NCBI GenBank assembly: GCA_964020155.1
Contig: OZ026555.1
Span: 2,965,282-3,029,281 of the forward strand
DNA: 64,000 nt
Direction: 5' to 3'
Source: Chondrilla cf. caribensis
Taxonomy: Eukaryota > Porifera > Demospongiae > Chondrillida > Chondrillidae
The notes beneath the pieces are model-generated. The model saw only the letters and a list, made by a program, of their open reading frames with translations, had not been told where the DNA came from and did no database searches. Position 1 is the first letter of the stretch. The number at the start of each line of letters is the position of its first letter. Below, in pieces: positions 19,690 through 55,651 of this stretch. The position numbers and the translations under genes are program-made.

Positions 19690-26452
<6,763 letters not shown>

Positions 26453-26677
26453 ACAAGTTAATGGGATAGACAGATTCCTGTGTTCCCTATTTCATGTGCA
26501 TATACGCCTGCATACACAGTGAGAAATGTGATTTTTATCACTATCGACTTCAAGATTTGACATATCTGAACTTGTATTGATATCCCCGTGCTACAGCCAC
26601 ATAAGTGTATCTTTTTAATTTTTATGACTGCTTTTCATGAGTTATTATAGAAAATAATTTCAGAGTATCTTCACATG

Positions 26678-27105: not shown

Positions 27106-27844
27106 TATCTTCACATGGTTAATCAGTTTCAAGTGTTGATTACGTGAGGAGATTAATGACTTAATGATAAACTATTCTCCTAAATGCATGAACATTGTAT
27201 ATATGTACCCATGTACTATTATATTATTATAGTAGCCATAATAAGATGAATTTAGAGTTAAAGCAATGATGTATATAATACATGAAAGGGGCTTGGTCAC
27301 TTGGAGGATTGCTACGTGCGTGTATGTACAATAATATCCTGTAATCAAAAGTGAAATATGATGATAATATTATTATTATATGTATGAATATGGCAATATT
27401 GTAAACTCATGCACTATCAATCCTCCATTATAATGGTCAGAGATTGCATAGAATTGCATGAGACGTCTCATGCAGACCAAAAATCATGAACAGTATTGCT
27501 TCATTCACAGAGATGGCTGAGGTTCAGAACCGTAGCAACTTTTAGATGTGGGATACATTTATATGGATAGCGATAGATGTCTAATGGGAGCTTTATGATT
27601 CCATTGTTCTGCATAAGATCACAAAGAAGAAAGAAATATTTAAGTATACATTACTCTGTATGAAAAATTACACAATAATATACATACAAAGGATACCCTC
27701 CTGTGGGGCAGGATAGGGCGTGGTCATTGGTGAATGCTTGTCCACGTACACAGTGTGTGGAGAGTTGTGGCACTTTGCTAGGAGGGCCAAGGCATTACAT
27801 AGACCATCTGATGCTGTGCTATACACACAAGTAGCTGTAGACAC

Positions 27845-27875
27845 TAACACACACACACGCACACACACTCACTCA

Positions 27876-27916
<41 letters not shown>

Positions 27917-27962
27917 TCACACACTCACTCACACACACACACACACACACGCACGCACACTC
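27845..27962 (+). repeat. (CA)n microsatellite with CACT interruptions
   Basis: CA repeat broken by CTCACTCACT runs. It begins inside what is a hammerhead ribozyme in the two related loci, right after AGCTGTAGACACTAAC, so repeat expansion or deletion removed the ribozyme core here. Confidence 0.9.
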
Positions 27963-28348
27963 TAATGTGCGAATGTGCAGAATCACAGATTTGCCGCTCC
28001 TTATATACCCGCTGGACACTTCAAATTTCGCGCCATAATGACGTCAGATTATTGATCGATATCCACTGCGTTGCCGTGTTGGCGAATACGTTATAAGATC
28101 ATCGGAACGCATAACAAACGCGATCGAAAATTACATCGTGACATCCGAATACTACTTGATACAGCAGTTTGAAATACATCATTGCAATCAGTACAGGAGA
28201 AGAAAAGCGAATAAAAAGGTAAAGTGACCCCGAACTGTCGACGGGTTCTGTTATTCCGTGTTTTCTGACTTGTCCATACATTTGAATGGAGCAATCATCA
28301 CCTATAGAGGTAGAATAAACAAACGAATACAATGTAAAATTTCATATG
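27963..28348. promoter_or_regulatory. Promoter-like block A (E2F and CRE motifs), fused to KDM7 copy 2
   Basis: A GC-richer block contains TTTCGCGCC (E2F-type) 4 bp before TGACGTCA (CRE, 28,039-28,046). It is repeated at 38,272-38,463 and 55,222-55,597. It ends with ATTTCATATG, after which the KDM7 copy starts at the end of exon 1. A possible short first coding exon (ATGGAGCAATCATCACC, then GAG|GTAGAA) is seen at about 28,286, but the related copy at 55.5 kb has lost that ATG. Whether the block drives either strand is inference. The minus strand is also open over about 75 codons. Confidence 0.5.
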
Positions 28349-31397: not shown

Positions 31398-31677
31398 TAA
31401 TTTATATTTGAGTTATTCAATCTAAGTGAGAAGGGTTCGCAATTTGCACAGACCCCAATGTTGTGAATTGCTAAACTTTGATTTCCATTACATCTTGTAC
31501 CATGAGCTAGACATGCATGTGGGTGTGTGTATGCTTGTGTGTGGATAAAGTGTTAACTAATTATCCCAGCTTTGTCTTCAGGATCACTTATCACTCTATC
31601 CCTGCCTAGCACACTAGATAGGCTATAGTTGTGGAGTGTAAGAAGTAAATTATTGTATAGTTTCTTTGTGTATATAA

Positions 31678-31866
<189 letters not shown>

Positions 31867-32240
31867 TAGGCTACTCTGGGGATCATACCCCCTTAGTACA
31901 CTGAACGTCACAAAAGTCTACATTCTGTTACAATACATATTTGTACAGTACATTCATGACACAACCAGCATTATATGTGGTGATAATGTATATATTGTAA
32001 TATTTTATTGACATAATATGTCTTTGTAGGGCGAGAAGATTTTCTACCTGATACCTCCAACTACAGAGAATCTCTTGAAGTATGAGCAATGGGTATCCTC
32101 CTCATCTCAAAGTGAAGTTTTCTTTGGCGATTTAGTAGATCACTGCTACAAATGCTTAATTTTAACTGGCAATACATTCTTCATTCCCTCGGGTTAGTTC
32201 AATTTTATTATTTTTTTCTCTTATGTACACACATTTGTAG

Positions 32241-32402
<162 letters not shown>

Positions 32403-33242
32403 TGACAGTTACTTGCTGAGGACTACAAGTGTTGTGTGTAGTATACGCAGTACATACTGTATGTCTTCCATATGTCCTATAGCATTTATGATTTGGAAGC
32501 AAGACTGAAAACACCAGAGAAGTTCCTTCATCCCAAATATGAAAGGCTTGTGTGGTTTGCAGCTAAAGGATTGCAGGAAAAGTTTGAAAGTGAGTAGTAT
32601 TTTTGTTACTGTCTACGTACGTACGTGCGCAACAGTGCTGCACTAACCATACCTGAGTCACAATGTTGAATAACAAGTATGGTTGTGGTGATAATCAATT
32701 ATTAAGGGTACTCCCAAGACCATTAGTCATACTGTGGTGTATGCAAACGGTAATATTTTTATCATTGGTATATGTACGTACAATTAATATGTATGGGAAT
32801 GTACCCATTGCTTTCAATTCAGCTTTGGCTTGTATGTGTTTAGTTACAATCAGTGAATGAATGGATTACCAACACTTGATACTTGTGATGGAGGATTTTG
32901 ATTGATGCACTCATATATGGGATACCAATGATAATTATTGTTTGTTGAGATAATTCCATTTAATTATCTTTAATTATCTTTAATATTAATACATATAAAT
33001 AAGAATACCTTACACACATTAAACCTACCTGTATTCAAATATTGATGTTTCAATCAATCCTTATGTATTACATGGTTTACTTTTAGGTATTCAATACGTA
33101 TCTGTGTCGCTTACGTGCATGTCTTTTGTATGCTTTCATTTAGAATGTACCTTGCAAAACATCAGGCCACACGATTTTCTTCTCAATGGTATCCATTCGT
33201 TGTATACAGCATTGTCCTCATGGTCAAGAGATAAGGTGTACA

Positions 33243-33304
<62 letters not shown>
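33243..33304 (+). repeat. (TG)n microsatellite, copy 2 intron 12
   Basis: Counterpart of 23,850-23,905. Confidence 0.95.
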
Positions 33305-33306
<2 letters not shown>

Positions 33307-36179
33307 GGCTTGTATACACATGTGTCTGTTTGTATGTGCATGTGTGGGTGTGTCAGCATATCTTTAAATCTGTAAAGTTGATAAGTGTTGACTGAATGTT
33401 TGATGTCATCCTGTTAATTTTACTTTACACCGGCATGCACCTGAATTGGGATGAAGTAAGAAGAGATTGTGTTTTTTTCTCCTACTTATAAAATTGTGTT
33501 TACCATATTGAAATAACATTATTTGATGAAAAATATACGTAGCTGTACTCATGCAGTCTCAAGTCACTCACTGGCTTTGTGTAACTCCTGTGCTTATTCT
33601 TATTCAGAAACACTGCAAGGAAATCCCACAGTCTGTCAATGAGGTGTCTCTGTTGAGTGCTCTTGAAGGTAGCATCACGTATGCACAGGTACAGTCAACA
33701 TTCACTTTATATGTTTCGTAACATGCAATGGACACTCATTAAGACAAACCGCAATGGTCCAACATGATCCGTTCTGGCTATCACTTTTTTCATATCAGGG
33801 ATTACGTTCTATATGTATATTATTTAGACTACTACAGCAAACCAAATGATCATGAAGAAATCGATTGTATTCAGTAGCAATTTGTCTTAAGGGTGTTTAT
33901 CTTGATGGATTTTGTACTGTAATGATGTTGTTGTCATACTCTGTAGTACTCATATCCTACAGGGTAAGTATGGCATGGAATATCACTCAGACCCGCCACA
34001 GGGTCAGTGGCAAAGGCCTTGTTTTGTGAGTGGTGAACCATTAAAGCTGAAGTTGAAGAGAGACAGCACCATGTACGTGCTTGGCTAGACTCATTCACAC
34101 ACATGGGTACATTACAGTGTGTGCACAAAGGGTGTGTACGTAACTACTGTCCTTTGCTATTTATTTATCATTTCAGAAAGTCATCATTAGAGCCTTCCAG
34201 TGAGTGATTTGTTGTTTGATACCTTGTGTGTTTATATTATCTGATGTTTCTACAAAACAGAGAGGAGGAGTCCTAAACAGTCTAGTAAAAGGCATACAGA
34301 GAGGTTTGTCTGCACCTGGCACTGAAGTGCATACACTCAGCATACCCTCTGTACATCATAGAGACATTTCTCAAGTTGAGGGTGTCATGTGCAATGGGTA
34401 CCACTAGTGATGTGATAATATGTGAGGGATAAAAGTGGTTGGAAGTAGTGACTATCGTTATACAGTAGAAACTCTTTGAGACAGAATATGAGGGACCCAC
34501 AAATCAGTTCTTGTTATCAGATGTTCTTCTTATCAGGATTTACTTATTATACGTACACTAGTACAGTAAACCAGATACAATACTCAAAAATTGGTTTGTA
34601 TTAAGCAGAAAAAATTGTCTGAAGAGTGTTTGTCTTCACGAAGTTCCATTGTACTTGGTTTCTCATGTAGTATACAAGATGAAGAGGATGGTCAAGAAGA
34701 TGGCGATTTTGGTAAAGCTTCATCTGTAGTAGTGTGTGTTCACATTGTTAGGTATCCTTGTTCACTGTAGTATACCTGGACGTTTACGATGAACTGCAGA
34801 CACAAGAGGAAGGAGACGATCACAATTGGGTCCCAAGTGGTGAGCTAGTAGTTTCCCATTCTGCTTGTATTTGAGCAGTTATTTCATTTCTGCCTCTTGC
34901 GGTTAAGGGAGCATAGCTTATTCTCGCAAGAAGGGTGCAGTGGCTTCCAGTAAGAGTATTGGGAAGAGAAATGCAATGAAGCCAATGGTGGGGAAAGCTA
35001 TCTGCTGCAGCCAAACTCTCCAAAATTGAAAATAGTACTACGTCCCCTGGTCAGCAGTCAAAGCAATTACCAGTCCACCACAAGTCTAAAGGTCAGTGGT
35101 CACTGTAGTACTTTGCATACTACATACATGTATTATAGTTGTAAAGATAGCACTGGGTGATATCCACTTGAGAGTATTCAACTAACTAGTCTTCATCAAT
35201 ACTATATCCATAGTCCTTATGTATCAATTCACTTATCACAAATAACTACAAATATCGGTATATTGCTTAACACTAGAGAGAGATTTCTCTGCCACATTTT
35301 GTGGTACAGCTGATGTAATAATAGAGAACACTTATTATATGCCAAAAAAATACAGTAACTTGGGTGTTAATTACTTAGTTACCTATGCATGCATGAATCC
35401 ATATACCGAAGTGTATTTACTTTTTCTTTAATTGTTATATGTGTGCTATTATTGTACTATTTGGCAGTGCGCATGCGTGCCTTTATTATAATTAATAATG
35501 GTCAGATCAAAAAAATGTATAGTAGGGGTAGTATGAATGCTCTATCCTTGGGTATGTCTGTGTATGGACACAATATTTCTCTTTCTGTGTAAATGGGAGT
35601 AATAAGGTCCAGGGTTGTGTATGAACAATATTCACTACATATATGGAACACAAATCCTCTAGTTTCTCCTACTTTGATGCTATTCTGTTGCTACTGCCAA
35701 TGTTCTGTTCCCATAACTGTGAATGGTATGTTGCCTCACTTTCTAGCCATTCACAGGAGCAAGCCAACAAGCTCGAAACAGCGATTGGGGAAGATCCTCA
35801 GTATAAAGGGTGCAGTCTACTCATACCAATCTTTGAAGAAGTGAACAAGTTAATGGGATAGACAGATTTCTGTGTTCCCTATTTCATGTGCATATACGCC
35901 TGCATACACAGTGAGAAATGTGATTTTTATCACTATCGACTTCAAGATTTGACATAATATCTGAACTTGTATTGATATCCCCGTGCTACAGCCACATAAG
36001 TGTATCTTTTTAATTTTTATGACTGCTTTTCATGAGGTATTATAGAAAATAATTTCAGAGTATCTTCACATGGTTAATCAGTTTCAAGTGTTGATTACGT
36101 GAGGAGATTAATGATCATGACTTAATGATAAACTATTCTCCAAAAGGCATGAACATTGTATAATATGTACCTATGTACT

Positions 36180-36776: not shown

Positions 36777-37090
36777 GCTTGTCCACGTACACAGTGTGTG
36801 GAGAGTTGTGGCACTTTGCTAGGAGGGCCAAGGCATTACATAGACCATCTGATGCTGTGCCGAAGGAGGTGCATATTCGCCACCACCCCTGTGTGCCAAG
36901 GGCTGATGGTCCAGCCCCTCCCTGAGTCTGCAATGCTGCCTGATGTATGAGTAGACCATTCAGGTGTTCAAAGAGTACGGGGTGGAATCAGGTGTCACCT
37001 GAGTCGTCATTTGTCAGTAAAACCTCAGACAGTGGTGTCTTTCCGGGTGTTTATTTTTCAGGACATCTAGTACATTTCCATCTATTACAT
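36777..37090 (-). pseudogene. Reverse-transcriptase element fragment
   Basis: The minus strand reads TQGGAGPSALGTQGWWRICT, then a frame with SDGLCNALALLAK, the region upstream of the RT fingers in a family of metazoan retroelements. The same segment occurs with more of the RT at 46,640-46,860 and mirrored at 53,000-53,210. Only the 5' part is present, next to an alpha-galactosidase exon. Confidence 0.65.
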
Positions 37091-37221
37091 TTCCAAATTT
37101 CTATCTGTGGAAGGATCCACAGATAGCAATTTGCTTTACCAAGCAAAAACCTGTGTGCCCGTGTCTAATCTAGCTCATCAGTTGTTCCTACTTGTTTGAG
37201 TACTTCTTTTGCCTCTTGAAA

Positions 37222-37497
37222 GGTGTTGAAGGTCACATGGTGTGGAGCAGCAGTGACTCCAAGAAACAAGTGTGGGCTGATCCCCTTTCTGGAGGCTCGG
37301 TTGCTGTCATTCTGCTGAACCTAGACGACAGTACTACTTCAAACATCACCATGGACTTCAAGACCGTTGGTATCCAATCTCAGCAGGCCTCGGCACGTGA
37401 CCTGTGGCTCCACAAGGATGCCGGGGTGATGTCAGGGAAGGTGTCCGGCTCTGTACCCCCTCATGGAGTGGTCATGTACAAACTTACTCCGAAATGA
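37222..37497 (+). pseudogene. Lone 3' exon of an alpha-galactosidase (GH27), C-terminal domain
   Basis: An open exon begins after an acceptor-like TTTTGCCTCTTGAAAG and ends with TGA at 37,497. It includes KKQVWADPLSGGSVAVILLN, VRDLW-like ARDLWLHKDAG, and SVPPHGVVMYKLTPK. These are hallmarks of the C-terminal beta-sandwich of eukaryotic GH27 alpha-galactosidases. The catalytic (beta/alpha)8 barrel exons are not found upstream, where RT-element and KDM7-flank sequence lies. It is therefore a gene fragment, probably brought in by rearrangement. Confidence 0.8.
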
Positions 37498-37526
37498 GTG
37501 GATGGCTCAAAGGAACCGTAAGGTCC

Positions 37527-37573
37527 TTTGCAGGTAGTACTGCTAACCATAGGTTAGCAGTACTACCTGCAAA
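37527..37573. repeat. Perfect 22-bp hairpin after the alpha-galactosidase stop
   Basis: TTTGCAGGTAGTACTGCTAA with CC, loop ATA, then the exact inverse. It starts 30 bp after the TGA, in the presumed 3' UTR. It could be a small mobile remnant or a structured RNA element. Confidence 0.7.
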
Positions 37574-37689
37574 TTGAAGCTGGCTGATTATACATGCATA
37601 CATGAATCTTGTGCTGTACTTGTGTCACAATAATCATTATCATTACCAAAATTGACTGATTAACATGCATACGGTTACCCACAACCAAC

Positions 37690-37696
37690 ACAGACG

Positions 37697-37734
<38 letters not shown>

Positions 37735-37785
37735 TGTACACCTTATCTCTTGAGCATACACACACACACACGCACACACACAGCC
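37690..37785 (+). repeat. (CA)n microsatellites flanking a duplicated KDM7 intron scrap
   Basis: Two CA tracts separate CAGATGTACACCTTATCTCT, the inverse of the KDM7 exon 12/intron 12 junction, here detached from the gene. It is one more small fragment of that gene. Confidence 0.6.
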
Positions 37786-37814
37786 CACTAAAAAATATAC
37801 TATACACACAAGTA

Positions 37815-37868
37815 GCTGTAGACACTAACACTGTAGTGTTTCGGCCTTTAGAGCCTCGTCAGTACAGC
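37815..37868 (-). ncRNA. Type-I hammerhead self-cleaving ribozyme
   Basis: On the minus strand, in order: stem I strand GCTGTA; core CTGACGA; stem II GGCT/GGCC closing a CTAAA loop; GAAA; stem III CACT/AGTG closing an 8-nt loop; the cleavage triplet GTC; then TACAGC, which pairs perfectly with GCTGTA. All conserved catalytic-core positions (CUGANGA, GAAA, NUH) are present. Cleavage is expected between 37,821 and 37,820. In animals such ribozymes are known from Penelope-like elements, retrozymes and SINEs, where they process transcripts. A second copy with stem-preserving changes is at 54,724. Confidence 0.85.
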
Positions 37869-37869
37869 A

Positions 37870-38113
37870 TTAATATTTACACGCTGGTACACACGCACAC
37901 ACACAAACATCAATATCACAATACTGTAGTATGTCTATACTCGGTGTACTCACACACACGTGTAAACTGTCACAAATACACACATCCAAACATGTGAAAT
38001 GATTGTGATTACAATAACTACAAAAAGTAAATTCCAACACAGCACTGACTGTTTCAGGGCACGCACACACAAACACACACATGCACACACACATGCAAAA
38101 ACATTATGCTACC

Positions 38114-38161
<48 letters not shown>

Positions 38162-38169
38162 CACACACA

Positions 38170-38234
<65 letters not shown>

Positions 38235-38271
38235 ACACACACACGCACACACACACGCACACACGCACACA
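37870..38271 (+). repeat. CA-rich tract beside the hammerhead ribozyme
   Basis: Unique segments (ATCAATATCACAATACTGTA, CAACACAGCACTGACTG) alternate with long CA runs. The same unique segments recur at 54,780-55,225, so this is one repeated locus with length-variable CA. Confidence 0.9.
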
Positions 38272-38463
38272 AATGTGCGAATGTGCAGAATCACAGATTT
38301 GCCGCTCCTTATATATATACCCGCTGGACACTTCAAATTTCGCGCCATAATGACGTCAGATTATTGATCGATATCCACTGCGTTGCCGTGTTGGCGAATA
38401 CGTTATAAGATCATCGAAACGCATAACAAACGCGATCGAAAATTACATCGTAACATCCGAATA
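38272..38463. promoter_or_regulatory. Promoter-like block B (truncated)
   Basis: Same block as 27,963-28,155, with TTTCGCGCC and TGACGTCA (38,351-38,358). It is cut at ACATCCGAATA by the terminal-inverted-repeat element that begins at 38,464. Confidence 0.5.
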
Positions 38464-39308
38464 CTAGTCTCGTTAACCAGACCCAGTTCCGCCTAACTTC
38501 CGATTATTCATCGGACGGCGAAACTGGGTCTGGGAAATACCTACCCCTAAACCGTTGCACGGGGGGCGGAGTCGAGCTAAGTGACAGACGTGACCGCAGT
38601 GTTATTCGTAATTTAAAAAATGGCGAGCACGGACGAAATTGAAGCGGCCCCTTTCCAAATCCTTTGATGGCCTTAATACTAGCTTTCCAGACATGAAAGA
38701 TAAGCAAGTAGATGCTGTTATAGGCGCGTTGAGTGTTAATGATGTTTTTATTAGCCTACCCACGGGCTACGGAAAAAACAATAACTGCCGTACTTCCGCA
38801 AGCTTTTGACATTCTACGCTTTGACGGTAAGAAACGTTCCATCGTCCTTAAAACAGATCTGTCACATATTCGAGCAGCAATCGGACGCCGACTCAAGCGA
38901 AGTTTCTGCTTTGTATTCTCGAGCTAATGTTGAAACGGATCTTGCCATTGCCACCAGTTCACTGTACGCTGGAGATCTCTTTACCCGTCATGGGCGGAGA
39001 GTTTGCTCGTACCGAAAGAAGAAACTTCGCTTAACTTTATTTAGAAACGTTAATACCGGAGATCACAAAGATTTCGCCACGTGGCTGTCAAGAACAACCA
39101 ATTTCCCTATTAAAACGCAGTAAAGCGTAAATTTACCGTTGTGTTTATTGCTTGTCACTTTCGGCAATTAGATCACAAAGACGCTAATTGGTCCGTGTCA
39201 GACGAGGACCCGTGCAACGGTTTAGGGGTAGGTATTTCCCAGACCCAGTTTCGCCGTCCGATGAATAATCGGAAGTTAGGCGGAACTGGGTCTGGTTAAC
39301 GAGACTAG
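38464..39308. mobile_element. 845-bp element with ~100-bp terminal inverted repeats and RecQ-like fragment
   Basis: CTAGTCTCGTTAACCAGACC starts the left end and its inverse closes the right end. The inverted repeats extend about 100 bp, to CCGTTGCACGG. The interior encodes a decayed helicase piece. No target duplication is evident, because the left flank belongs to the promoter-like block and the right flank is the outer end of the palindrome's left arm. It is non-autonomous. Confidence 0.85.
38619..39123 (+). pseudogene. RecQ-like helicase fragment inside the TIR element
   Basis: DKQVDAVIGALSVNDVFISL followed by PTGYGK is a RecQ-type motif 0/I (Walker A). One base too many then shifts the frame, and the next frame continues TITAVLPQAFDIL. 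A later frame (38,806-39,123) is open to a TAA but is not recognisable as a helicase core. Such helicase-like fragments occur in metazoan DNA transposons. This one cannot make a working enzyme. Confidence 0.6.
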
Positions 39309-44989: not shown

Positions 44990-45641
44990 CTAATTTATAA
45001 CATAGAATTGACCGACCTTGTATTCGCTGAAATAAGCCATCACTTCGTCATTCTTAAACACATTGGCCATTTCGAAGCAGTCCCACTCAATTGGTTTACC
45101 GAGAATAGGACCAAATCCGCCGACAGAGCAGTAAGGGTCAGCTCCATGGTCAAGTAACATCTTCGCCATTGGGATGTTGTTATGGACAATTGCAAGATGA
45201 AGGGGAGTTAGTCTATACTCTGTCAAAGCCCTGATGTTCACATTAGCTCCCGCATCCACTAAAACAGGCACTCCTTCCAACAGGTCGCAGTCCACGCAGT
45301 AATGGAGAGGAGATCGGTCTAGATCGAAGCCAGCGTGGCAATAAGGGTCGGGAAAATTCACACACGCTCCTTCTGAAATGAGTTCCTTCATCAGTTCCAC
45401 GTCTCGAAACTCTGTGATGGCGATACACAACCAGCTGTATTTCTGTTCGGCAGTCAGCGGTTTACACTCTAACACAAAAAGGACCACAAAAATCACAGAT
45501 AAAGTTGACTTGATGTAATTATAAGTTGAAGTATTAGTCAACTTATTATAATACACACGACCTATACTTACCAAATGATGTAACTTCCACTAAATCTTTA
45601 TACGTGAAACGTTCTTGTTCATCTCTCTTCTTGGTAGTCAT
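44990..45641 (-). CDS. Ankyrin-repeat protein, two exons, 182 aa
   Basis: Exon 1 is 45572-45641 (MTTKKRDEQERFTYKDLVEV), with donor GTAAGT. Exon 2 is 44990-45468, ending TAG. The join makes a glutamate codon (G+AG). Three to four ankyrin repeats are visible: YSWLCIAITEFRDVELMKEL ISEGACVN; RSPLHYCVDCDLLEGVPVLV DAGANVNI; LTPLHLAIVHNNIPMAKMLL DHGADP. The motifs TPLH and GA(D/N) are canonical. It probably works as a small cytoplasmic binding protein. Only exon 1 survives in the right arm. Confidence 0.85.
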
Positions 45642-46199
45642 TTCGGCGAAGAATAGCTTTAAGTTAGTTAATAGTGACGCGTAAGCCACAGTGCATGACG
45701 TTTAAATTGATTCCTATTATTCAATACTGATTTGATTACTACTGTACTACTAATACATTCCGAATGGCACCTTATATTGGTTGTATTGGTGTCACCCTGC
45801 GCTGACCTGGCTATATCCATAATAATGTAATTATCAATATCCTGGGCTACAGCAGAGATGCCGACACTTTGTCCAATTGGTAATGAGAGTGCAGCCCAAT
45901 TAAACCTGCTGTACCCCAACCGAAAGGGATATGGTTAATATTAGGTTTCATAGTGACCAGTGTCTATACGGTACGTGTTGTATCTTTTCACACTGGTCAA
46001 TCAGGTCAGGAGGAAGTGACCGATATGATGACAGATCTGAGACAGAGAGATACAAACCATCCAAGGTGAGAGCGTGTGCAATGTTGACAACCACCTCATC
46101 TGGGGTGACGTAGATGGTGAATATGTCCCCCAATCAATAAAAATAGCCTACCAAAAGATTGTGCATTGACGGAAAAACATCTTTCAGTTACCATCAGAC
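45642..46199. other. Upstream region of the ankyrin gene with mirrored short ORFs
   Basis: Two short minus-strand frames (45,668-45,919 and 45,948-46,133, the latter with IYVTPDEVVVNIAHALTLDG) are repeated exactly in the right arm. One may be a remnant of a gene or element, but no family is recognised. Confidence 0.35.
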
Positions 46200-47590
46200 A
46201 CAGTAGGTAGGGAGTTCGTTAACGAACTGGCACGGCTCTTTGTTGTTTTTGCAGAGAGCTCTTCGTTAGAATCCATGTTCACACATGCTCTAGGACAAAA
46301 GATCACATTCACTGCCTAAAGCGTCGTCTTAAGTCATGGAAAGCAGGTAATATATCCGAACTCGTTCAAGAGGGTCAAGTGATCCAGTAACATTTGACAA
46401 CATCCTCTGCTACACAAAAATGGGAGCAGACAAGTTTAGCTAAACATTTGCAAAACTGGTCTTTGCAGGTAGGTTTAAGGCTGCCCAACGATTACTTGCA
46501 AACCCATGAAGACTATGAAGATAGTATTCTTTCACTGAATGCGAAGATAGATGACGATGAATCAGTACTAGATGTCCTGAAAAAAAACACCCAGAAAGAC
46601 ACCACTGTCTGATGTTTTACTGACAAATGACGACTCAGATGACACCTGATTCCACCCTGTACTCTTTGAACACCTGAATGGTCTACTCATACGTCAGGCA
46701 GCATTGCGGACTCAGGGAGGGGCTGGACCATCAGCCCTTGGCACACAGGGGTGGTGGCGAATATGCACCTCCTTCGGCACCACATCAGATGGTCTATGCA
46801 ATACCTTGGCCCTCGTAGCAAAGCGCCTATGCACAGAGGTTTTGGACTTTAACAATCTACAAGCTTATGTGGCTTAATTGTAGACTGATATCGCTAATTA
46901 AAAGAACAGGTGTGCGCCCTATAGAAATCTGTGAGGTGCGTGGAGAATCATTGGGTAGGCAATTCTTGAAGTCACCAGCAATGACATCCAGCTTGCTGCA
47001 GGCACACGACAATGGGGATTGAGGCAGCAATCCACGCCATGCATCACATCTATGACAATGAGAACACCGATGCTCTCCTTTTGGTAGACGCCGAGAATGC
47101 ATTTAATCTTCTTAACCAAAGAGCAGCCTTACACAACATTAAAGTACTCTGCCCTGCCTTAGCAACAGTACTTCAGACTAGATATTGTGGAGCATCAGGA
47201 TTATATGTTGGCAGAGAGATGTTGATATCTAATGTAGGAACAACACAAGCTGACCCCCCGGCCATGAATATGTACGCTGTTGCCATAATGCCACTACTAC
47301 ATACGAAAGCTACAACCAACAGGAATTAAACAGGCGTGGTTTGCAAATGATGCAACAGGTGGAGAATCACTGGCAGACGTACGCAGCTGGTGGGACCAAC
47401 TGATCAGTATAGGTCTGGGATATGGATACTATCCCAAGGCTAGTAAATCTTGGCTCTTGGTGAAGAAAACAAAGGCAGATGAAGCCAGCAGAATGTTCAG
47501 TGAACCAGGGATACAAATCACCACAGATCGAAGGAAGGAGGCTTTCGGGTGCTGCTATAGGCACCGTTGAATTTGAAGGGAAGTTTATGG
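46200..47590 (+). pseudogene. Decayed retroelement reverse transcriptase (left arm)
   Basis: Pieces occur in order: an upstream domain (RQAALRTQGGAGPSALGTQG, WWRICTSF), then GIEAAIHAMHHIYDNENTDA, LLLVDAENAFNLLNQRAALH (RT motif A with the first catalytic aspartate), and GTTQADPPAMNMYAVAIMPL (RT motif B). The next frame continues AWFANDATGG, where the catalytic Y-A-D-D box should stand, then SWWDQLISIG. The box has become F-A-N-D, and frames change between pieces, so it is inactive. The element family is not assigned here. Confidence 0.75.
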
Positions 47591-48060
47591 AAACCAGCAT
47601 ATTCATTTTTGATTACAGGATATTATTGTACATACACGCACGTAGCAATCCTCCAAGTGACCAAGCCCCTTTCGTGTATTATATACATCATTGCTTTAAC
47701 TCTAAATTCATATGGCTACTATTATAGTACACAGGTACATATAATATATATACGATGTTCATGCATTTAGGAGAATAGTTTATCATTAAGTCATTAATCT
47801 CCTCACGTAATCAACACTTGAAACTGATTAACCATGTGAAGATACTCTGAAATTATTTTCTATAATAACTCATGAAAAGCAGTCATAAAAATTAAAAAGA
47901 TACACTTATGTGGCTGTAGCACGGGGATATCAATACAAGTTCAGATATTATGTCAAATCTTGAAGTCGATAGTGATAAAAATCACATTTCTCACTGTGTA
48001 TGCAGGCGTATATGCACATGAAATAGGGAACACAGAAATCTGTCTATCCCATTAACTTGT

Positions 48061-49605
48061 TCACTTCTTCAAAGATTGGTATGAGTAGACTGCACCCTTT
48101 ATACTGAGGATCTTCCCCAATCGCTGTTTCGAGCTTGTTGGCTTGCTCCTGTGAATGGCTAGAAAGTGAGGCAACATACCATTTACAGATATGGGAACAG
48201 AACATTGGCAGTAGCAACAGAATAGCATCAAAGTAGGAGGATTTGTGTTCCATATTTGTAGTGAATATTGTTCATATACAACCCTGGACCTTATTACTCC
48301 CATCTACACACAGAAAGATAAATTTTGTGTCCACACAGACATACCCAAGGATAGAACATTCATACTACCCCTACTATACATGCATGTATGCATGCATAGG
48401 TAACTAAGTAATAACACCCAAGTTACTGTTTTTGGCTTATACGTAATTATTCTCTATTATTACATCAGCTGTACCACAAAATGTGGCAGAGAAATCTTTC
48501 TCTAGTGTTAAGCAATATACCGATATTTGTAGTTATTTGTGATAAGTGGATTGATACATAAGGACTATGGATATTATAGTATTGATGAGGACTAGTTAGT
48601 TGAATACTCTCAAGTGGATATCACCCAGTGCTATCTTTACAACTATAATACACGTACGTAGTATGCAAAGTACTACAGTGACCACTGACCTTTAGACTTG
48701 TGGTGGACTGGTAATTGCTTTGACTGCTGACCAGGGGACGTAGTACTATTTTCAATTTTGGAGAGTTTGGCTGCAGTTGATTCGATAGCTTTCCCCACCA
48801 TTGGCTTCATTGCATTTCTCTTCCCAATACTCTTACTGGAAGCCACTGCACCCTTCTTGCGAGAATAAGCTATGCTCCCTAAACCGCAAGAGGGAGAAAT
48901 GAAATAACTGCTCAAATGCAAGCAAAATGGGAAACTACTAGCTCACCACTTGGGACCCAATTGTGATCGTCTCCTTCCTCTTGTGTCTGCAGTTCATCAT
49001 AAAGGTCCAGGTATACTACAGTGAACAAGGATACCTAACAATGTGAACACACACTACTCCATGTCCTAAAAGCACAAAGCTTTACCAAAATCGTCATCTT
49101 CTTGACCATCCTCTTCATCTTGTATACTACATGAGAAACCAAGTACAGTGGAACCTCATTAAGACAAACACTCTTCAGACAATTTTCTGCCTAATACAAA
49201 CCAATTTTGAGTATTGTATCTGGTTGACTGTACTAGCATATGTATAATAAGTAAATCCTGATAAGAAGAACATGTGATAACAAGAACTGATTTGTGGGTC
49301 CCTCATATTCTGTCTCAAAGAGTTTCTACTGTATAACGATAGTCACTACTTCCAACCACTTTTATCGCTCACACATTATCACATCACTAGTGGTACCCAT
49401 TGCACATGACACCCTCAACTTGAGAAAAGTCTCTATGATGTACAGAGGGTATGCTGAGTGTATGCACTTCAGTGCCAGGTGCAGACAAACCTCTCTGTAT
49501 GCCTTTTACTAGACTGTTTAGGACTCCTCCTCTCTGTTTTGTAGAAACATCAGATAATATAAACACACAAGGTATCAAACAACAAATCACTCACTGGAAG
49601 GCTCT
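48061..49605 (-). pseudogene. KDM7: KDM7-like gene, 3' end (exons 15-20), inverted copy 3
   Basis: The minus strand repeats the last six coding exons of the demethylase: KSSLEPS, RRSPKQS, the acidic IQDEEDGQEDDDF, YLDLYDELQTQEEGDDHNWV, the lysine-rich SRKKGAVASSKSIGKRNAMK, and the C-terminal SSKQRLGKILSIKGAVYSYQ. The catalytic domain is absent. The inner edge of the left palindrome arm cuts it at GGCTCT, 49,605. Confidence 0.85.
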
Positions 49606-54278: not shown

Positions 54279-54313
54279 GTAAGTATAGGTCGTGTGTATT
54301 ATAATAAGTTGAC

Positions 54314-54549: not shown

Positions 54550-54629
<80 letters not shown>

Positions 54630-54657
54630 GCACGTACATGCAAAAACATTATGCTAC

Positions 54658-54690
<33 letters not shown>
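54514..54690 (+). repeat. (CA)n microsatellite after the gap
   Basis: A long CA tract with two short unique insertions (ATGCTACCAACACAC, CGTACATGCAAAAAC). Confidence 0.95.
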
Positions 54691-54723
54691 AGCCCACTAA
54701 AAAATATACAATACACACAAGTA

Positions 54724-54777
54724 GCTGTAGACACTAAAATTGTAGTGTTTCGGCCTTCAGAGCCTCGTCAGTACAGC
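54724..54777 (-). ncRNA. Type-I hammerhead self-cleaving ribozyme, second copy
   Basis: On the minus strand: GCTGTA; CTGACGA; stem II GGCT/GGCC with a CTGAA loop; GAAA; stem III CACTA/TAGTG with a CAATTT loop; GTC; TACAGC. Compared with 37,815-37,868 the changes fall mainly in loops, and stem III gains a pair, while the core and stem I are unchanged. Cleavage is expected between 54,730 and 54,729. The flanks (TATACACACAAG-type sequence and ATTAATATT) match those of the first copy. Confidence 0.85.
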
Positions 54778-54867
54778 ATTAATATTTTCACACAAGTGTA
54801 CACGCTGGTACACACGCACACACACAAACATCAATATCACAATACTGTAGTATGTCTATACTCTGTG

Positions 54868-54869
54868 TA

Positions 54870-54919
<50 letters not shown>

Positions 54920-55067
54920 TAAACTGTCGCAAATACACACATCCAAACATGTGAAATGATTGTGATTACAATAACTACAAAAAGTAAATTCCAACACAGC
55001 ACTGACTTTTTCAGGGCACGCACACACAAACAGACTCACATACTCACACATGCTACCAACACACACA

Positions 55068-55132
<65 letters not shown>

Positions 55133-55221
55133 ACACTCACGCACACACACACACACACACACTCACGCACACACACACACACACACACTCACGCACACAC
55201 ACACACGCACGCACGCACACA
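54868..55221 (+). repeat. (CA)n tracts
   Basis: CA tracts at 54,868-54,916 and about 55,058-55,221, separated by the unique segments also seen at 37.9-38.1 kb. Confidence 0.95.
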
Positions 55222-55597
55222 CAAATGTGCGAATGTGCAGAATCACAGATTTGCCACTCCTTATATACCCGCTGGACACTTCGAATTTCGCGCCATAATG
55301 ACGTCAGAATATTGATCGATAGTCACTGCGTTGCCGTGTTGGCGAATACGTTATAAGATCATCGGAACGCATAACAAACGCGATCGAAAATTACATCGTA
55401 ACATCCGAATACAACTCGATACAGCAGTTTGAAATACATCATCGCAATCAGTACAGGAAAAGAAAAGCGAATAAAAAGGTAAAGTGACCCCGAACTGCCG
55501 ACGGGGTCTGTTATTCCGTGTTTTCTGACTTGTCCATACATTTGAATAGAGCAATAGAGGTAGAATAAACAAACGAATGCAATGTAAAATTTCATAT
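55222..55597. promoter_or_regulatory. Promoter-like block C, fused to ankyrin fragment
   Basis: Third copy of the E2F/CRE block (TTTCGCGCC; TGACGTCA at 55,299-55,306). It ends at ATTTCATATG like block A, but continues into the ankyrin fragment instead of KDM7. The short plus-strand ATG seen in block A is changed to ATA here. Confidence 0.5.
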
Positions 55598-55651
55598 GGA
55601 GCGTGTATGAATTTTCCCGACCCTTATAGCCACGCTGGCTTCGATCTAGAC
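55598..55651 (+). pseudogene. 54-bp ankyrin gene fragment
   Basis: GGAGCGTGTATGAATTTTCC to TTCGATCTAGAC matches the ankyrin exon 2 region (inverse of about 45,315-45,368). It joins directly to the upstream flank of the kelch exon (ACTGGGACACTCATT). Confidence 0.8.

Follow-up and report, generated by a model that had tools for sequence, protein, structure and literature searches.

Is the hammerhead-like sequence lying beside a CA microsatellite on the minus strand of this window (the whole 64-kb stretch of DNA analysed here) a complete ribozyme and, if so, what kind of element carries it? Regarding the first point, the sequence-only reading had proposed a complete type-I hammerhead ribozyme (HHR) with little likelihood of being a chance motif, and both claims were borne out. 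Read on the minus strand from 37868 to 37815, the first copy has the layout GCTGTA-CTGACGA-GGCTCTAAAGGCC-GAA-ACACTACAGTGTTAGTGT-C-TACAGC; its stem I has 6/6 pairs (6 bp), stem II, GGC(T)/(G)GCC, has three Watson-Crick pairs and one U-G, and stem III has 5-6 pairs, A15.1-U16.1 included, with cleavage predicted directly after C17, i.e. between GTC and TACAGC. The core (CUGANGA ... GAA ... UH), the three ordered stems and the open stem I correspond to the type-I topology. When both strands were scanned, the full three-stem motif occurred exactly twice in the 64 kb, on the minus strand in both cases (Table 1), and in 0/60 first-order Markov shuffles of the window. As for the fold, the hammerhead is the MFE structure of the 60-nt RNA in 4/4 sequences, among these both window copies (-18.9 and -15.5 kcal/mol); when the flanks were extended, it lost to competing folds in 3/3 stretches tried, so that activity within a real transcript is not assured. 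On the grounds of motif and fold, the sequence is confirmed as a complete hammerhead, for which catalysis is predicted.

Table 1. Features of the window related to the hammerhead and to the element that carries it.
Feature	Position	Strand	Description
HHR copy 1	37815..37868	-	Predicted cut between 37821 and 37820
HHR copy 2	54724..54777	-	Motif scan and 60-nt fold; loops differ from copy 1
B arm 1	37646..38464	-	Read inward: promoter block, GT/CA tracts, HHR, inner end
TATA-like box TATATATATAAG, arm 1	38308..38320	-	By eye; upstream of HHR, same strand
CRE-like TGACGTCA, arm 1	38351-38358	-	By eye
B arm 2	54556..55598	-	CATATG end 55593-55598, then promoter block, CA tracts, HHR
TATA box TATATAAG, arm 2	55260..55267	-	By eye
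36-bp terminal repeat CATATGAAATTTTACATTGCATTCGTTTGTTTATTC	55563..55598	-	Genomic matches; flanks diverge past CATATG
Third B arm	27820..28348	-	Intact terminus 28313-28348, promoter block
Captured alpha-galactosidase piece	37088..37640	+	Last exon, flanking intron and 3' sequence; coding 37225-37497

As for the carrier, a DNA search of the host assembly (137 Mb, 37 contigs) with a 121-bp HHR region as the query returned at least 40 HHR copies, and one further arm on contig C7 brings the total to at least 41. The copies lie in two carriers: element A-HHR, with 7 copies (the old class), and element B, with 34 (the young class). A solo relic, one of the two options first offered, is not supported by this number of copies in two carriers; moreover, the CA tracts lie inside the repeat, so the CA microsatellite is no coincidental neighbour of the HHR. 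A scan of viral contigs with a 24-base HHR pattern gave 0 matches.

Element B is organised as follows: a terminus beginning with CATATGAAATTTTACATTGC..., the TATA/CRE block, CA tracts, the HHR and an inner end, with 552 bp of an alpha-galactosidase gene often held between two inverted arms. Of the arms in the window, the first has no outer terminus, being homologous to other copies up to 38464; in the third, the HHR is truncated into the CA tract, and what survives of it is the 3' part near 27831-27850 (by eye). The 36-bp terminus has 31 genomic matches (up to 3 mismatches) against 0 for a backward-read control, and at 21 distinct ends, compared by eye, CATATG is the precise limit of homology, beyond which the flanks are different; accordingly, we rejected the idea that all B copies stem from the segmental duplication of a single region. 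Locus L017 (C15:1904826-1906700) contains both ends of B, the left one short and the right one a long arm, with this terminus in common; B has, as TIR DNA transposons do, a short terminal inverted repeat at otherwise different ends. The joined flanks of this insertion match 13 other genomic places, and comparison with 5 of these 13 unfilled places gave at most 1-2 bp duplicated and no target-site duplication (TSD) of fixed length. No B transposase was found; a 546-aa stop-to-stop frame with DDE_1 and HTH_psq domains (pogo-like; L054:8284-9921, minus) was rejected as a candidate, having its own inverted ends and being nested in an A copy.

The promoter-like block had been suggested to be part of an undescribed non-autonomous element together with the hammerhead, and comparison of the copies demonstrated that it does belong to the repeat unit. 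In 27/41 copies, a TATA module precedes the HHR on its own strand, these being 27/34 of the young B copies and 0/7 of the old A-HHR ones; 7/34 B-type copies show none within the upstream stretch examined, which extended up to 1450 nt and was shorter in three copies. Its start is 461 nt from the HHR in arm 1 and 500 nt in arm 2, with distances of 77 to 1154 nt among the copies. The output of a promoter scanner was set aside, being built on a bacterial consensus and uninformative for this animal DNA.

The alpha-galactosidase piece (Melibiase_C, 77.7 bits in the window) has at least 43 genomic matches of at least 88 bases in about 40 places, with recurring borders, and the intron sequence retained inside it (by eye) suggests capture as DNA. 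In its 3' flank, window positions 37530-37571 form a near-perfect hairpin with arms of ~20 bp, for which the miRNA-family matches are far under cut-off. Other duplications occur in the window: positions 45537-49605 and 54313-50245 form a 4.07-kb inverted duplication of 99.975% identity, adjoining an N stretch near 54313, which is either a recent palindrome or an assembly effect; 21992-26677 and 31398-36072 are a long direct duplication of 97.6% identity, with neighbouring pieces doubled too.

The other carrier, A-HHR, is dispersed, CA-rich and hairpin-ended, and measures ~1.7-1.8 kb when complete. It starts with AACAAGTAATTCGAGTT...ACTCGAATTACTTG, which forms a hairpin, and continues with CA tracts, the minus-strand HHR near that end, more CA and a unique stretch, up to the 3' hairpin AGGGGCTGCC-TGC-GGCAGCCCCTAA. 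Its copies are in L027, L035 (the same as L041), L045, L046, L047, L049 and L051; L049 and L051 are without the far end, and L027 exceeds the stretch examined. The ends are common to an abundant dispersed repeat of ~340 bp devoid of the HHR (four copies read; 40 of 738 candidates scored). For the insertion in L046, the unfilled counterpart is the paralogue L062 (~93-96% identity), and no TSD was detected at this one A-HHR site compared. Helitron-like elements are recognised by a 5' TC, a 3' hairpin followed by CTRR, and no TSD; element A shares with them the lack of a TSD (one site) and a 3' hairpin followed by CTAA, but its 5' end is AACAAG rather than TC, and its 3' end was absent downstream of the 2 Helitron loci examined, of 9 in the genome. 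These nine Helitron_like_N matches (e.g. C4:5649571), eight of which are in stop-free frames of 1562-1683 aa, possibly represent recently active Helitrons. Regarding the relation between the two carriers, three B loci (L013, L018 and L030) have kept the A 5' end ahead of the HHR, with a near-identical 25-base flank before it that is likewise found in front of an HHR-less A copy in L054; this persistence indicates that the HHR of B probably derived from A-HHR.

Taken together, we consider it rather likely that the hammerhead is a constant component of a family of non-autonomous mobile repeats, passing from A-HHR to B, with inward transcription and self-cutting. A-HHR would be the older carrier of the HHR, and its block would have fused into the inside of B, probably via recombination in the (CA)n tracts that both share; B would be a DNA-transposon-like unit, with its 36-bp terminal repeat starting at CATATG and, often, long inverted arms. 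The TATA/CRE promoter in each arm would transcribe inward, and the nascent RNA would cut itself at the hammerhead, ~470 nt from its start, separating a capped GU-rich leader from the downstream RNA; the likelier effect would be the uncapping or limiting of element transcripts, with removal of the leader as the simplest consequence. The starting points, namely the anatomy, the copies, their location and the lack of a TSD at one site per carrier, are observed in the DNA, and the steps past them are what we infer from it.

The same anatomy could be read in another way, possible if unlikely, by which the hammerhead is an inert passenger: derived from A-HHR, it would have been copied along with B, functionless, and would look intact as the copies are young. 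The conservation of the HHR bears on this choice in both directions. One row per locus was aligned, for 39 of the 41 copies, and RNAalifold returned the three hammerhead stems; taking a copy as intact when the core was kept and stems I, II and III had at least 5, 3 and at least 4 pairs, respectively, 34/39 were so. The five damaged copies, a point for the passenger, have a core change (L015, L017 and L037) or a weakened stem II (L019 and L048), and two of those scored as intact carry a stem III mismatch (L034 and L053), one of them at A15.1. Among the 23 distinct HHR sequences, 98.4% of the cells pair and no compensatory change occurs; this absence of covariation, which also favours the passenger, is explained by the family being too uniform, and the misfolding of the longer RNA points the same way.

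As for divergence, with regions cut from L045 and at most 7 old copies, the HHR differs about half as much as its neighbours, with 1.8% vs 3.9-6.7% in the old-old comparison and 3.4% vs 7.0-7.6% in the old-young one, values that weigh against the inert passenger. With regions cut from the window, instead, old copies differ from each other little more in the neighbours than in the HHR (2.2-2.4% vs 1.8%), and among the young B copies the HHR and the promoter block diverge equally (2.6% each), both in favour of the passenger; in the young copies the other neighbours are close, at 2.8-3.3%, and divergence is higher in the terminus, at 3.8%, and in the alpha-galactosidase piece, at 4.8%. Position N7 is freely variable in hammerheads, and it is there that the old/young difference within the core falls, again arguing against an inert sequence. 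Overall, constraint on the HHR is suggested by these comparisons, not proven.

Use of the ribozyme in the manner of a retrotransposon, as in non-LTR retrozymes or Penelope-like elements, is much less probable; according to this scheme, the ribozyme would free monomers that are circularised and then reverse-transcribed. In the genome, 4/4 of the HHR pairs spaced by less than 1 kb converge, and so does another pair 7.7 kb apart; no direct tandem pair occurs within 5 kb among the at least 41 copies, and in the single direct pair, at a distance of 5.3 kb, one HHR belongs to A-HHR and the other to B. Given that the close pairs converge, a single B unit has no two direct ribozymes between which a unit-length RNA could be set free, and retrozyme-style circularisation does not follow. 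According to the report on non-LTR retrozymes (Cervera and de la Pena 2020, PMC7229834), these are direct tandem HHR repeats with RNAs of ~170-400 nt, and animal type-I hammerheads come mostly from elements of this kind, which, with the presence in the host genome of a separate HHR family with a very short stem III, speaks for the retrotransposon-type use. Likewise, the sponge sequences combine a type-I hammerhead with a multi-copy, non-coding animal repeat, but, unlike in those retrozymes (PMC7229834), the units are kb-sized, the HHRs occur singly or converge, the termini of B are inverted, and the tested sites have no TSD. Direct tandem HHRs ~150-450 bp long, typical of retrozymes, were not found among the at least 41 copies. 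The tie with retrozymes or SINEs expected by the earlier reading is not supported, given the lack of direct tandem pairs within 5 kb among these copies, the unit sizes of ~1.7-3.6 kb across the carriers, far above 170-400 nt, and the absence of a TSD at one site per carrier, including the A-HHR site with the unfilled paralogue. Finally, a link with Penelope-like elements did not emerge either: no reverse transcriptase was noticed by eye among the ORFs of at least 100 aa in L054 and L055, three of which were checked against Pfam.

Regarding other mobile or repetitive DNA, Spy-type DNA transposons insert without a TSD. B resembles them in this respect at the one insertion compared, with the difference that no transposase was found for it. 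Satellite repeats with hammerheads reportedly occur in cave crickets; B differs from these in that its units are dispersed, end at exact termini and have different flanks. The same distinction applies to the Schistosoma W-elements, presented as chromosome-restricted, satellite-like hammerhead repeats with functional evidence stated (PMC8490949). Penelope-like elements and the rotifer Terminons also have hammerheads in the terminal parts of a mobile element, and the Terminons occupy a single chromosomal niche, the telomeres, with host genes captured between units (PMC6431247, PMC12477314); B is niche-bound with a captured host gene as well, but its niche is mid-chromosomal and not telomeric. 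Unlike Penelope-like elements, B ends in a short terminal repeat, and no reverse transcriptase was noticed (by eye) in the long B-bounded L054. In general, animal hammerheads have been reported mostly from retroelements and satellites; in the titles and abstracts searched, with subscription papers mostly outside, none was described in TSD-less inverted-repeat elements, or concentrated in one zone of nearly every chromosome.

As for comparison with the Rfam models, the sequence-only reading had taken a covariance score below threshold as counting against a hammerhead, and this is formally the outcome: no family reached the gathering score anywhere in the window, nor in five loci scanned whole (L010, L020, L045, L046 and L051), the best value being 26.8 bits against a cut-off of 56.3. 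At a loose threshold, Hammerhead_3 and RAGATH-1-hammerhead overlap the first copy with 21.9 bits (cut-off 48.5) and 21.2 bits (cut-off 56.3), respectively; among the five loci, a hammerhead-type match (E up to 1) was obtained in L045 only, an old-class copy scoring 24.3 bits with Hammerhead_3, whose alignment forces a type-III outer stem that differs from that of the motif, and 26.8 bits with RAGATH-1-hammerhead, whose alignment tracks the identical hammerhead core. In a genome-wide Hammerhead_1 search, with 73 of 12345 candidates scored, this HHR family was absent among the 8 matches listed. The sub-threshold scores are read as those of a variant outside the coverage of the models, because 34/39 aligned genomic copies retain the core and the pairing; it would seem, then, that a hammerhead family that looks intact can escape detection at the Rfam cut-offs. 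The idea that a hammerhead-like sequence was assembled by chance within a CA-rich region, to which the low Rfam scores would lend themselves, can practically be discarded in view of the motif-free shuffled windows and of this retention.

A second, distinct hammerhead family (RF00163) is present in L001-L008, around positions 1501-1545, with at least 8 matches (E up to 0.001), 5 of them above cut-off. Its stem III is very short, several copies have a TATAAAAGG-like box just upstream, and repeat parts of ~100-320 bp recur within some of the loci in direct and inverted order.

The last aspect considered was the chromosomal location. Matches to B components were pooled (33 young HHR, 40 terminal and 40 of the 43 longer alpha-galactosidase matches, 113 in all), and a zone was defined as the DNA within 500 kb of the median of the pooled matches of each chromosome; the lists are lower bounds, with about 40 candidates scored per search, and the alpha-galactosidase matches include apparent real genes, so not all of them are B. 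Left out were three of the 43 alpha-galactosidase rows (second pieces of counted places, all inside zones), 12 shorter A-repeat rows and the second arm on C7. With a median derived from the same matches, which favours B, 112/113 fall in one zone per chromosome; by the same measure, the values are 8/40 for A 3' ends, 1/7 for the old HHR copies and 3/8 for other Rfam-detected HHRs, with an expected fraction of 0.187. The zones occur on 24/25 of the largest contigs, with none seen on C23, and their medians lie at 0.38-0.60 along the contig, except for C1 (0.24); on C10 the zone is near 3.0 Mb and on C4 near 3.5 Mb, and 2/31 of the 36-bp termini are outside (C7:773397 and C18:1533949). Free of the bias of the median, the summed spans of the merged loci amount to 3.5 Mb, while 2000 random placements averaged 31.6 and did not fall below 18.4, with the lengths of C11, C14, C22 and C23 interpolated. 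In two of the zones, ends of alpha-galactosidase genes ~3-8 kb apart on one strand (C6:3170957-3187344 and C21:2017953-2022409) look like tandem genes.

In conclusion, the B zones, which are mostly mid-chromosomal, behave like centromeres and may be such. A bolder and quite doubtful extension of the favoured reading is that a TSD-less TIR element living almost solely at centromeres took up a hammerhead, and that its RNA, self-driven and self-cut, takes part in making or limiting centromeric transcripts. If true, this would be the first ribozyme tied both to a mobile element of the DNA type and to dispersed repeats of a centromere zone; if the zones are indeed centromeres, the compact genome of this sponge would allow testing the role of a self-cleaving RNA in centromere transcription.
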